Assembly: GCA_028820505.1 (NCBI GenBank)
Contig: JAPPIT010000023.1
Span: 1 to 62,299 of the forward strand
DNA: 62,299 bases
Source of the DNA: Defluviicoccus sp.
Lineage (GTDB): Bacteria > Pseudomonadota > Alphaproteobacteria > MPNO01
Direction: 5' to 3'
Shown: in pieces, positions 15,483-20,749 of the stretch
Numbering within the stretch: the stretch's first letter is position 1
Layout: every line of letters starts with the position of its first letter
Notes under the pieces: model-generated
Database searches by the model: none
Told to the model about the DNA's origin: nothing
The model's input: only the letters and a program-made list of their open reading frames with translations
Translations under genes and position numbers: made by a program

Positions 15483-16496
15483 CTACCGCTCGCCGCGCAG
15501 TTCCGCGATGCGCTTGTGGACCGCGATCAGGAACTTGTCGGCTTGGCCGGGCACGTCGACCGGGTCGCCGAAGGCGATCCTGTTGCGCTGCTGCGCCTCG
15601 ACCATCGGAATGTCCTCGGTCCGGATCGTCGTCTCCTGCTCGCGCCGCATGTCCTCGTCGTTGGGATAGCCGCCGTCCAGCGCGAAGTCGCGGGTGAACG
15701 CGAAGAAGTAGTGGCTCGAGGTCTCGGTCTCCGGCGTCATGATGTGGTCGTGGTTGATGACGATCCGGTTCTCCCGGTTTTCCATCGCCAGCTCGATGTT
15801 GATCGTGTTCGTCGGCCGCCAGTTCTGCGAGGTCGTCCGCGTGACCGGCTCGGTGAACCCGCCCCAGGCCGCGGCCATCGGCCCCAGCGCCACGTTCTTC
15901 AGCACCCGCCGGCTGTGCACCGAGCCCGGCTTGGTCCAGGTTTCCATCTCCTGGCGGACGGTGTCGGTCTCGCCTCTCTGCCCGGCGCGCGAGCCGAAGC
16001 TGCCGGCGTGGAGAAAATCGGCGTGGCTGACGTCCAGCAAATTGTCCGCCATGAGCTGGTCGTTGGCCCGGGCGTGGAACCGGCTGAGGATCGACGAGCG
16101 GTCGTCAGCCACCAGCCACGGCATCTCCGGGATCGCTGCCGGATCGGCTTTCGACGGATCGCCCAGCCAGGCCCAGACGAACCCCTCGCGCGACGCCGCC
16201 GGGTAGCTCCTGACCCGCGCGTTGCGCGAGACAGTCTCCTGATGCGGGACGTGGACGCAGCGCCCGTCGGCGGCCATCACCCAGCCGTGATAGCCGCACA
16301 TGATCTCGTCGCCGATCACCCGGCCCATCGACAGCGGCGCCTGGCGATGCGGACAGCGATCCTCCAGCGCCACCAGCGTTCCCGACTTCGCGGTCTGGAA
16401 CAGGACGATCGGCCGGTCGCACACGACGCGCCGGATCGGCCGGCTCGAAATCTCCGAGGCGAGCGCCACGCAGTACCAGATGTCTTCGAAGAACAT
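15483..16496 (-). CDS. Rieske non-haem iron oxygenase (VanA-like)
   Basis: 337 residues, alpha subunit of the vanillate O-demethylase/phenoxybenzoate type. The Rieske cluster is bound by C48-x-H50 and C67-x2-H70 with 16 residues between pairs. The mononuclear iron site is D-V-S-H-A-D-F-L-H (D-x2-H-x4-H) at about 150-160. Such enzymes demethylate methoxy-aromatics or hydroxylate rings and need a separate reductase, which is not in the window. It forms a two-gene unit with the downstream MBL hydrolase and is divergent from the GST at 16573. Confidence 0.9.
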   Translation of the reverse strand: MFFEDIWYCVALASEISSRPIRRVVCDRPIVLFQTAKSGTLVALEDRCPHRQAPLSMGRVIGDEIMCGYHGWVMAADGRCVHVPHQETVSRNARVRSYPAASREGFVWAWLGDPSKADPAAIPEMPWLVADDRSSILSRFHARANDQLMADNLLDVSHADFLHAGSFGSRAGQRGETDTVRQEMETWTKPGSVHSRRVLKNVALGPMAAAWGGFTEPVTRTTSQNWRPTNTINIELAMENRENRIVINHDHIMTPETETSSHYFFAFTRDFALDGGYPNDEDMRREQETTIRTEDIPMVEAQQRNRIAFGDPVDVPGQADKFLIAVHKRIAELRGER

Positions 16497-16572: not shown

Positions 16573-17388
16573 ATGCTGACGCTGTACCACCAGGGAAGCT
16601 CGGTCTGCGCGGCCAAGGTGCGGATCGTGCTCCACGAAAAGGAGGCCGAGTGGACGGGCGAGGTCGTGGACGTGCTGAGGGGCGAGCAGTTCCAGGACTG
16701 GTACCTCAAGCTCAATCCCAACGCAGTCGTGCCCACCCTGGTCGACGGCGGCCGGCCGATCGTCGAATCGACGGTTATCTGCGAATATCTCGACGACATC
16801 CTGCCCGATCCGCCGCTCCGATCCGCCGACCCGTACGACCTCGCCGCGATGCGGATCTGGACCAAGCGGATCGACGAGCGGCTGCACCCGATGACCAGCG
16901 TGCTGACCTATTCGGCCTCGCACCGGTTCACCATCCTCGACAACAACACGCCCGAGCAGGTCGAGGCGATCATCGAGGAGACCCGCGACCCCGTGAAACG
17001 CCAGCGCAAGCGCGAATGGATCGAGCTCGGCATCGAAGCGCCCAGCGCACGCGCCGCCGTCGTCGAGTTCGAGAAGACCCTCGCCGACATGGAGGAGACG
17101 CTTTCGCGGACGCCGTGGCTTGCCGGCGATGTCTATTCGCTCGCCGATGTCGGCATGACGCCCTACGTCAACCGGCTGTCGATGATGCGGATGGAGGGGT
17201 TCTGGAACGGCCGCCCCAATGTCGAGGACTGGTTCGCCCGGGTGCGCGGCCGCGCGAGCTTCGTGCCCGCGCTTATCGACGCGGTTCCCGAAGACCTGAC
17301 GGAATCGCTCGCCGCCAACGGCGGGCGGAGCTGGCCCAGGGTCGAGGAAATCCTGGAGACCGCTCGCGCGGCCTCCGCCTCAGCCTGA
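16573..17388 (+). CDS. Glutathione S-transferase family protein
   Basis: 271 residues. The N-terminal thioredoxin-like domain starts MLTLYHQGSSVCAAKV, with Ser9/Ser10 and Cys12 near the catalytic position. N-P-N-A-V-V-P-T-L with cis-Pro and V-E-S-T-V-I bind glutathione. The helical domain contains L-A-G-D-V-Y-S-L-A-D-V-G-M-T-P. It resembles GSTs of beta-etherase/dehalogenase-like type (longer helical domain). GGGAGGGG precedes the ATG. It is divergent from the Rieske gene, and its last 9 bp overlap the end of the AhpD-like gene on the other strand. Confidence 0.88.
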   Translation: MLTLYHQGSSVCAAKVRIVLHEKEAEWTGEVVDVLRGEQFQDWYLKLNPNAVVPTLVDGGRPIVESTVICEYLDDILPDPPLRSADPYDLAAMRIWTKRIDERLHPMTSVLTYSASHRFTILDNNTPEQVEAIIEETRDPVKRQRKREWIELGIEAPSARAAVVEFEKTLADMEETLSRTPWLAGDVYSLADVGMTPYVNRLSMMRMEGFWNGRPNVEDWFARVRGRASFVPALIDAVPEDLTESLAANGGRSWPRVEEILETARAASASA

Positions 17389-18507
17389 CCGACCCGGCGG
17401 AGACGGCCGCCGCCACACGTCGATGCCGAGCTCGGCGCGCAGATCCGCCGTTCCCGACTCTTTCGCCGGTTCCAGCGGGATCCCGGTAGCGTCGGCGACC
17501 CGGTCGAGCGCCGAATAGTTGGCGATCACGGCCGCCGCATCGACCAGCGCCGCATCGCCAAGCGTATCCCGCACGCGTTGGCGGGTGTCGTCCAGCAGGA
17601 TCTCGTCATCGCCCAGCGCCGCTTCGGCGAAAGTCGTGAGCAGGCCGCCGTGCGGGACGCCCCCGTCGCCCGCGTCGTCGTCCACGATCGCGGTCAGGTC
17701 GATGCTGGTTCCCGTCGCCGTCGCGCTCGCACGGAGCATCTCCGCATGGGTGACGGTTCAGTAGAAACACCCGTTGACGGCCGAGACCCGTCCGGCGATC
17801 AGCTCCATCTGGGCGCGGTCGATGGCACGGTGCCGGCCCGCGACGTCGGGAATCAGCCGGCCCGGCAAGTACTGGGCGTCCACCATGTCGAACAGTCCGC
17901 TGGCTTCCCGGGGCACCAGGCTGAGCGCGCGCCGGACGAAGGTCGGGTCCGGCGAGACATAGACATTGTCGAGGCACGATTCGTCCGCCGTCCTGTCGTC
18001 GGGCGCCAGCATGGGTACCCATGCGGGTCCCGGTTTCGCGCCCGCCGGCCGCCGCCGCGACGGCTCGCCCGGTTCGGGGTCGGGCAGGGGGTGCGGGGGA
18101 GCCCCGATCGCGTGGCAGAACATGTCCACCGCGACGGTCGTCACGACGACGCCGACCGTCTCGACGAACGCCGCATCGCCGATGCCGCTCTCCCTCGCGC
18201 GGTCGAACCAGGCGCGGGTCAGGCGGCCGGGATCGGTGGCGATCCGGTGAACGACCTCGACAAGGTTATCCGGCAGGTCGGTCCCCGCACGGTGCGATCC
18301 CTCGACGGCATAGGGAGACAACGCGGCCTTGCATTCCGCGCAGTAGGCGCAATCCCGGGTCGCTCTCGTCTCGGCCGCGATCGCCAGGCGGCGCTCCGCC
18401 CGGAACCACGTGCCCGGTTGTCCGATCCTTTGCCATGCGCGCCGGTGGGCGGCGGCCAGATCCTCGCGGATAAAGATATCCGCAGTTTCGTATGAGAGCA
18501 GGCCCAT
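17380..18507 (-). CDS. AhpD/CMD-like peroxidase, candidate selenoprotein (in-frame UGA = Sec250)
   Basis: 375 residues if the TGA at 17760-17758 is read as selenocysteine. Without readthrough the frame would stop after 249 residues, directly after N-G-C-F-Y. With it, C247-F-Y-U250-T-V-T-H254 reproduces the AhpD motif C-x2-C-x3-H, and Glu235 lies 12 residues before Cys247. Thus all four catalytic positions known for AhpD (Glu, Cys, Cys, His at spacing 12-3-4) are present, with Sec in place of the resolving/peroxidatic Cys. The frame continues for 125 plausible residues after the TGA. The N-terminal half (about 20-135) is a second CMD-like domain with C53-x2-C56-x2-C59. A SECIS-like hairpin lies at 17730-17746. 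ATG 18507 is the only good start. The gene is divergent from tauD. An alternative is a nonsense mutation or base error. Confidence 0.82.
17730..17746 (-). promoter_or_regulatory. Candidate bacterial SECIS hairpin
   Basis: On the mRNA the stem is UGCGGAG/CUCCGUG (7 bp, two of them G-U pairs) closing an AUG loop. If the top G-C pair opens, the loop is GAUGC with a G at its first position, as bacterial SECIS elements prefer. The loop begins 18 nt after the UGA, inside the 16-37 nt window usual for SelB-binding hairpins. It lies within the coding sequence, as in bacteria. Confidence 0.6.
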
Positions 18508-18589: not shown

Positions 18590-19447
18590 ATGTCCATCGA
18601 GATCGTGGCGCTGTCGTCCGACATGGGCGCCGAAATCCGCGGCGTGGACCTTTCCCGCCCGCTCGATCCCGCGGTCGCCTCGGCCCTGCGCACGGCCTGG
18701 CTGGATCGCGTGGTGCTGGTTTTCCGCGGCCAGACGCTCGACGACGACGCGCTAAGGCGGAGCGCGGACTGGCTGGGCGAGGCGGCGGATATCTCGATGC
18801 CGGTGGACCGGCGCGGAGACGACGACAGTTCGATCGCGTTGATCTCCAATATTCGGGACGAAACCGGCGCGCCCATCGGGGCGCTCGGCGACGGCGACAT
18901 GTGGTTCCACCACGACAACAGCTTCACCGCGGCGCCCGACAAGGCGACGTGGCTCTACGCCGTCGAGCTGCCGGGAAGCGGCGGGAACACCCTGTTCGGC
19001 AACTGCTACCGCGCCTACGAGGCGCTGCCCGAGAGGCTGCGCCGGTCGCTGGCCGGAAGAAGGGTCCTTCAGGTCTACGACTACACGCTCAAGGAGCGTC
19101 CCGACATCGCGGACCTCGGCGGAATCCCCCACTACTGGCAGCCGGCGGTGATCGTCCATCCCGCGACGCGCAAGAAAGCGCTCTATGTCGACCGGCTGAT
19201 GACCGCGGCGGTCGAAGGCTATGACCGCGCGGCGGGCGAAGCGCTGATCGAGGAGGTCTGCGCCTATGTCGAGCGGGTCGACTACGAGCATGTCTGGCGG
19301 GCGGGCGACTACGTGATCTGGGACAACCGCTGCTCGGTGCATGCGCGCACCGATTTCCCGGCCGACGAGCGCCGCCTGCTGAAGCGGGGCAAGGTTGCGG
19401 GCGAGCCCCTGCTGGCGGAAATCCGGGCTGCGCCGGAGGTTCACTGA
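18590..19447 (+). CDS. TauD/TfdA family 2-oxoglutarate dioxygenase
   Basis: 285 residues. The iron triad is H107-x-D109 (in MWFHHDNSF) and His251 (in CSVHARTDF), and the Arg of the RRLLKRG segment is placed to bind 2-oxoglutarate. The W-H-H-D/T-D-x-S-F context is typical of TfdA (2,4-D dioxygenase) and taurine dioxygenase relatives, which hydroxylate ethers or sulfonates to release an aldehyde. It is divergent from the candidate selenoprotein (82 bp between starts) and convergent with an LLM oxidoreductase gene, overlapping it by 7 bp. Confidence 0.9.
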   Translation: MSIEIVALSSDMGAEIRGVDLSRPLDPAVASALRTAWLDRVVLVFRGQTLDDDALRRSADWLGEAADISMPVDRRGDDDSSIALISNIRDETGAPIGALGDGDMWFHHDNSFTAAPDKATWLYAVELPGSGGNTLFGNCYRAYEALPERLRRSLAGRRVLQVYDYTLKERPDIADLGGIPHYWQPAVIVHPATRKKALYVDRLMTAAVEGYDRAAGEALIEEVCAYVERVDYEHVWRAGDYVIWDNRCSVHARTDFPADERRLLKRGKVAGEPLLAEIRAAPEVH

Positions 19448-20448
19448 CCGGCGCGGATCGCCGGCAGGACGTGCTCCCCGAACAGTTCCACCGTCCCCGC
19501 CGGGTCCGAGGCGACGCTGACGGTGAACATCACGCGCTTCAGGCCCGCCGCCCCGGCGGCGCGCAGCTGATCGAGGCACTGCTCCGGCGTGCCGTAAACC
19601 GCGAAGCGTCCCGCGAGGTAATCGAACAGCCCCAGCTCGTCGACCAGCCGCGCGTCGGCCTCTCCCGGCCGGGTGCTGTAGCGCCGGCGCAGCTCCCGGA
19701 CCGGCTCGTGGTATTCCGCCGGCACCCCGCGCTCCGCCAGATCGTCGCCGGCGAGAATGTAGCCGCCCGCCATGAAGGCCAGGATCGCGCCGGCCCTCTG
19801 CCTCGCGGCATCGCCGTCGCGGTTGCAGTCGAGGCTCGCGATCTGCCAGGTCTCCACCCCGTCCGCCGCGCGCCCGCCTTCCCGCGCGCCTTCGGCGACC
19901 AGGGACTCGGAATAGCGGAGATTGTCGGGGGCGATGCCGAAATTGACGAAGGCGCCGTCCGCGATCCTGCCGGCAAGTCCCAGGGTTCGCCGGCCGGAGG
20001 CGGCCAGGAAAACGCTTACGCCGCCGCGCGCCCAGGGTATATGAGCTTCCGCCTCGCCGAGCGACGCCGGTGCGCCGGAGGTCAGCGTCTTTACGAAGCG
20101 CATCCCGTCATCGAGCTCGCCAAGACCGGAACTGGCCAATCCTAGGTTCCGCGTCCCGCTGTGTCCCGCGCCCAACCCCAGGACCAGACGATCTGGCGCC
20201 AGAAGCTCCAGGGACGAAACGGCGGCGGCGGAGACCGCCGGATGGCGCGAGGACAGGTTGGTGACGCAGAGCGCTATCCGGGCCTCGCGCACCTCGCGGG
20301 CGACGATCGTGGCCGCGACCCACGGATCCATCGCGTTGCCGGGGGTATCGGCGATGCCGATCATGTCGTAGCCCCAGCGGTCGGCGGCTTCCGCCATGCG
20401 TCCGGTCAGCTCCGGCGTGTAGGGCCAGAAGAAGAATCCGATTTCCAT
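19441..20448 (-). CDS. LLM-class flavin-dependent oxidoreductase
   Basis: 335 residues, a luciferase-like TIM barrel beginning MEIGFFFWPY. Characteristic parts are the G-I-A-D-T-P strand, V-A-R-E-V-R-E-A-R-I-A-L-C-V-T-N, and L-V-L-G-L-G-A-G-H-S-G. Members use FMN or F420; the cofactor cannot be decided here. The later segment VYGTPEQCLDQLRAAGAAGLKR is a typical LLM C-terminal helix. I chose ATG 20448; a second ATG five codons upstream is possible. It is convergent with tauD. The enzyme may oxidise the product of that dioxygenase or a sulfonate, but this is only context. Confidence 0.88.
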   Translation of the reverse strand: MEIGFFFWPYTPELTGRMAEAADRWGYDMIGIADTPGNAMDPWVAATIVAREVREARIALCVTNLSSRHPAVSAAAVSSLELLAPDRLVLGLGAGHSGTRNLGLASSGLGELDDGMRFVKTLTSGAPASLGEAEAHIPWARGGVSVFLAASGRRTLGLAGRIADGAFVNFGIAPDNLRYSESLVAEGAREGGRAADGVETWQIASLDCNRDGDAARQRAGAILAFMAGGYILAGDDLAERGVPAEYHEPVRELRRRYSTRPGEADARLVDELGLFDYLAGRFAVYGTPEQCLDQLRAAGAAGLKRVMFTVSVASDPAGTVELFGEHVLPAIRAGQ

Positions 20449-20749
20449 TTCTCCGTCCCGCAATCCGTGAAGGAGTCCGCATATCCGCTCGGCGAGAAGG
20501 CCGTCTTCGCCCGCCCGTCCGCACCCGACCCGGCATCGGACAGGGTAACCGAAAGACGTTGCGGAACGGAGTGCCCGAATTGCCCTTGGCTTTTGAGCCC
20601 AAAGACTGCACGATCCAACGTTAAATGACGAATGTCTTCGGCAAGTCGAGAACGAGTAGAGGAATGTCGCGCGGCGTATCGGGGACGAACGATTACTTAG
20701 CGATCCCTGTACCAGTATCCGGGAGAAGCCCGATCAGGACAAGAAGACG
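20449..20749. other. Spacer between LLM and STAS genes
   Basis: 301 bp between divergent genes. No gene, repeat or clear promoter could be supported. The region around 20610-20700 is less GC-rich than the genes on either side and probably carries the promoter of the STAS gene. Confidence 0.4.

Follow-up and report, generated by a model that had tools for sequence, protein, structure and literature searches.

An open reading frame interrupted by a single TGA codon

The window analysed here is the whole 62,299-nucleotide stretch of Defluviicoccus sp. contig JAPPIT010000023.1. On its reverse strand, positions 17380 to 18507 hold a coding sequence for a 375-residue protein, which matches the family model NF041238 (AhpD_rel_CFYUT) with 466.7 bits for a cut-off of 175, over model positions 1-355 of 357 and residues 13-365 of the protein. 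Translation of this frame bore out what an initial annotation of the sequence had described, namely one interruption by TGA at 17760-17758 (codon 250, reverse strand), in the context N-G-C-F-Y-U-T-V-T-H. This is the CFYUT-type CxxU motif of the family (NGCFYUTVTH), with UGA at the U. Apart from codon 250, the reverse-strand frame from 17380 to 18507 is free of interrupting stops, and it ends with a second TGA used as terminal stop (codon 376, bases 17382-17380). A gene caller based on codon usage and blind to selenocysteine (Sec) placed coding regions of a single frame on both sides of the TGA, at 17758-18507 and 17380-17739.

Several genes for oxidoreductases and related proteins surround this frame. 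A TauD/TfdA-family dioxygenase gene lies divergently at 18590-19447 (forward strand), followed upstream by a gene for a luciferase-like (LLM) flavin oxidoreductase at 19441-20463 (reverse strand). On the other side, a glutathione S-transferase-like (GST) gene at 16573-17388 (forward strand) converges on the selenoprotein gene, their 3′ ends overlapping by 9 bases, and a Rieske/VanA-type oxygenase gene is found nearby at 15483-16496 (reverse strand). In all five same-genus loci, the LLM gene adjoins the selenoprotein gene or sits one gene off, its identity outside the window locus being judged by a shared start sequence. In one of these loci (L125), it ends 14 bases upstream of the selenoprotein gene, on the same strand.

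Conservation of the in-frame codon

Homologues were then collected from 97 related genomes. Full-length copies turned up across most of the order, and several further families of the class have them too; essentially all of these copies read through one TGA. In the extracted homologues, the codon 250 column is TGA in 65 cases out of 65, and Glu235, Cys247, Thr251 and His254 are invariant. The initial annotation had placed Glu235, Cys247, UGA250 and His254 correctly, and all four are invariant in the 65 homologues. Where additional TGAs were examined in some homologues, they proved to be terminal stops or to lie before the gene. One homologue lacking the TGA (L033) runs into unrelated sequence near the edge of its contig; being uninformative, it was left out.

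When 385 genomes were sampled evenly across the class, with membership defined as a score over the NF041238 cut-off, 27 were carriers; they hold 52 genes, and all of these (52/52) contain exactly one TGA within the matched region. In a phylum-wide draw of 398 genomes, the cut-off was exceeded by the present genome only; weaker matches covered the C-terminal half alone and had no TGA. Among the single-domain relatives that gave these weaker matches, E-x11-C-x2-C-x3-H was present in 19 of 19 sequences read, so that the Sec position is occupied by Cys. Neither the 385-genome nor the 398-genome draw yielded a full two-half protein with Cys in place of Sec, and the Sec/Cys interchange is therefore visible only in the single-domain relatives. 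A search for relatives on plasmids found none. A further protein from the class, distinct from this family and with a single AhpD-like domain (L036:214-585, G053:C141), carries the motif DCFYUTQSH; it is apparently the single-domain AhpD-like selenoprotein.

These counts bear on the trivial explanation that the TGA arose through faulty sequencing or assembly, or through a recent nonsense mutation, in what would be a Cys250 gene or a pseudogene. The window does come from a draft assembly of 228 contigs. Nevertheless, the TGA recurs in 65/65 homologues, which stem from numerous different assemblies, as well as in the five paralogues of this genome (see below), and the frame contains no further stop, which makes this explanation extremely unlikely for the present gene. 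As an explanation for the family, sequencing error is refuted by the conservation of the TGA in independent genomes.

Selenocysteine machinery and its link to the family

All four genes of the Sec machinery, whose presence the initial annotation had proposed to verify, were detected above their cut-offs. The selA (565.8 bits), selB (468 bits) and selC (73.4 bits) genes are together on one contig (C102), and selD (309.1 bits) is on another (C56). ARAGORN identified selC as a tRNA-SeC with anticodon tca (UCA).

Across the 385-genome class draw, selB was present in 55 genomes: 27 of the 27 family carriers, versus 28 of the 358 non-carriers. The Fisher test gives p 1.6e-26 for this co-occurrence, a value that is merely indicative because related genomes were counted as if they were independent. 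In 6 of the 27 carriers (G033, G117, G148, G210, G303 and G380) selB and a family gene are no more than about 4 kb apart, the smallest distance being about 350 bases (G033:C741).

A genome-wide reassignment of TGA, for example to Trp or Cys, would also produce readthrough at codon 250. We found nothing in favour of it; TGA serves as terminal stop of this very gene and of some homologues, the genome holds a complete Sec machinery, and the carriers all have selB. The probability that we grant to reassignment is practically nil.

A SECIS-like hairpin downstream of UGA250

We examined the RNA following the UGA codon for a bacterial SECIS element, and found a conserved SECIS-like hairpin at the level of the family. 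Counting from the U of UGA, nucleotides 21-27 pair with 33-39 in the homologues, around a five-base apical loop, CGUGC, in which the G at nucleotide 29 is invariant. In the window, the corresponding core (nucleotides 21-39) occupies 17722-17740 of the reverse strand and reads GAUGCUC, loop CGUGC, GAGCGCG.

In 259 scored columns, synonymous constraint was measured as codon choice relative to family-wide usage. Arg+9 and Leu+8 come out as the two most constrained: the former is encoded by CGT in 61 of 64 genes, compared to 10% for Arg elsewhere, and the latter by CTC in 64 of 64. Ala+10 (GCG in 45/45) ranks third, and Ser+11 (AGC or AGT in 62/62) fifth. In the family helix, 84.6% of the cells pair and the outer stem pairs covary; the helix covariation is 0.199, versus 0.121 (sd 0.018) in shuffled alignments and 0.019-0.120 when the helix is slid along. 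RNAalifold, run on the family, retained no more than three pairs, the inner ones, which are mostly invariant.

In the window copy itself, the inner 5 of the 7 family pairs form, the two outermost being absent, and when folded alone its minimum free energy structure is a different pairing, with an unremarkable z of -1.2. The case for a SECIS element therefore rests on the family rather than on the window copy alone. A scan of the window with Rfam yielded no matches at gathering scores.

Could UGA250 simply be a stop, releasing a 249-residue product that ends just after Cys247, with a separate open reading frame downstream? This is what a standard gene caller proposes, as it terminates the frame at UGA250. 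Against it, the 125 downstream residues are conserved and align without gaps, across the stop, to the C-terminal portion of AhpD-like proteins; the shortened product would lose residue 250 and His254, which are invariant in all homologues; and the synonymous constraint is located just after the UGA. We consider a true stop very unlikely.

The proposal that UGA250 is decoded as Sec, also made from the start, is upheld by the presence of the machinery, the conservation of the hairpin and the Cys found in single-domain relatives. SelB and the tRNA-Sec would decode UGA250, aided by the hairpin that follows the codon, a scheme that these sequence comparisons strongly support. The gene offers a clean and well-controlled example of a locus where standard annotation would make two genes of one.

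Paralogues and host

Five NF041238 copies are present in this genome, all with the UGA. On a maximum-likelihood tree they fall on five separate branches; four of them group with genes of the same genus, and the fifth (L050) with a gene from another family of the order. This most divergent paralogue (L050:3480-7002) lies between GST-like genes and a gene for a CMD-domain protein. Another paralogue (L047:6421-9568) is found just downstream of genes for the beta and alpha subunits of a ring-hydroxylating dioxygenase.

The named congeners are Defluviicoccus sp. metagenome-assembled genomes. One congener, bin129 (MPNO), came from the sponge Aplysina aerophoba (PMC5649159), and the present genome may be of sponge origin as well. 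In that study, SelA and SelB co-occurred in most symbiont bins, and the majority of close reference genomes lacked them (PMC5649159). The paralogue set described here is a concrete candidate for the reason why sponge symbionts, where these genes are reported to be enriched (PMC5649159), keep selA and selB. The presence of five old paralogues, the restriction of the family to selB genomes and its frequent proximity to selB suggest that it is among the main Sec clients in these alphaproteobacteria.

Two halves and a putative Cys-Sec active site

The protein is made of two halves. The C-terminal one (residues 185-362, 17422-17955 on the reverse strand) is related to AhpD and peroxidase-related proteins, with 99.1% and an E of 6.7e-19 in an hhalign comparison made against single-domain Cys relatives. 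It carries Glu235, Cys247, Tyr249, Sec250 and His254. The proton relay of AhpD consists of five residues, Glu118, Cys130, His132, Cys133 and His137 (PMC3141380), and its spacing is the same, UGA250 falling at the position of AhpD Cys133. From this identical spacing, Cys247 and Sec250 are expected to be the redox-active pair, the proton relay being supplied by Glu235, Tyr249 and His254. A Tyr at the third relay place is also found in the AhpD-like protein PA0269 (PMC3141380).

The N-terminal half (residues 16-150, 18058-18462 on the reverse strand) is CMD-like, with modest support (hhalign 48-54%, E about 1e-4). When it was aligned with the C-terminal half and with single-domain relatives (48% and 54%), its CxxC fell on CxxU. 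The relay Glu and His are absent from it, Leu41 and Lys60 standing at the places that match Glu235 and His254 in spacing. The C-x2-C-x2-C motif first noted in this half is present as Cys53, Cys56 and Cys59, and its first two members are largely kept, each in 56 of the 63 homologues having a residue there; the third occurs in only 5 homologues, which are the same-genus orthologues. AlphaFold, run on the five same-genus sequences, returned a pLDDT of 43, too low for the model to be used. The role of the N-terminal half is probably structural or resolving, a proposal for which the support is weak.

We conclude, with high confidence, that this gene encodes a full-length NF041238 selenoprotein, with predicted hairpin-aided incorporation of Sec250, a putative Cys247-Sec250 redox pair that likely makes it a peroxidase or oxidoreductase, and a CMD-like N-terminal half. 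Judging from its sequence, the protein is most likely a selenol/thiol peroxidase or a disulfide-handling oxidoreductase, and its chemistry would be the reduction of peroxides or disulfides through the Cys-Sec pair.

A different activity is conceivable for a true selenoprotein of this type: it might be reductase-, dehalogenase- or isomerase-like, and act in connection with the oxygenases, GST and flavin oxidoreductase encoded around it. The surroundings speak for it, with a Rieske oxygenase, a GST, a TauD-type dioxygenase and an LLM oxidoreductase in the window, and, next to two other paralogues, a ring-hydroxylating dioxygenase pair in one case and GST and CMD protein genes in the other. Moreover, PA0269 has only weak peroxidase activity (PMC3141380). 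On the other hand, the neighbours vary from one paralogue to the next, and the full AhpD proton-relay set is present, with Glu, Cys, Sec and His invariant. We see such a non-peroxidase function as less likely, and the peroxidase or disulfide-handling activity as the better reading. A more ambitious proposal is that the family is Sec-obligate and its two CMD-like halves work as a relay, the bond between Cys247 and Sec250 being resolved by the N-terminal CxxC of the same chain, and that this genus has retained five old, functionally separate Sec paralogues, which would be a main reason for retaining the Sec machinery; taken as a whole, this is speculative and rather unlikely.

Comparison with known systems

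The initial annotation had suggested that the two-half arrangement might be undescribed. This did not hold, as the 357-position model of NF041238 (alkylhydroperoxidase-related (seleno)protein) spans the entire protein and thus both halves. In a review of 2026 the family is entered as "AhpD-related protein (hypothetical protein 1, Sargasso Sea metagenome)" (PMC13188914), and the selenoprotein and its architecture were therefore already catalogued. Our protein resembles NF041238 in the CFYUT motif, the CxxU and both halves; nothing sets it apart, Cys59 being a genus-level addition. The family was first described in 2005 as Sargasso Sea "hypothetical protein 1" (PMC1088965), likewise a CxxU selenoprotein for which a bacterial SECIS was predicted (PMC1088965). 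Those are marine metagenome sequences, and they are equated with the present family through the review's NF041238 assignment. The family is catalogued, but the sources consulted here attach no function to it.

The peroxidase-related enzymes of TIGR01926, and the AhpD-like selenoprotein grouped with them, are homologous to the C-terminal half and share E-x11-C-x2-[C/U]-x3-H. They are single units of about 180-200 residues, without the N-terminal half, and our protein scores 45.2 bits with that model, below its cut-off of 81.8, which makes it a homologue outside the family. It likewise falls outside the AhpD model TIGR00777 (23.2 bits for a cut-off of 191.95). With Mycobacterium tuberculosis AhpD it has in common the relay spacing 12-2-1-4 (PMC3141380), and it differs by Sec in place of Cys133, Tyr in place of His132, the extra N-terminal half and a low overall similarity. 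The protein is a new member of a known family, and what is modestly new lies in the five deep paralogue lineages of this sponge-symbiont-like genome, the proximity to selB and an N-terminal CxxC devoid of the relay Glu and His.
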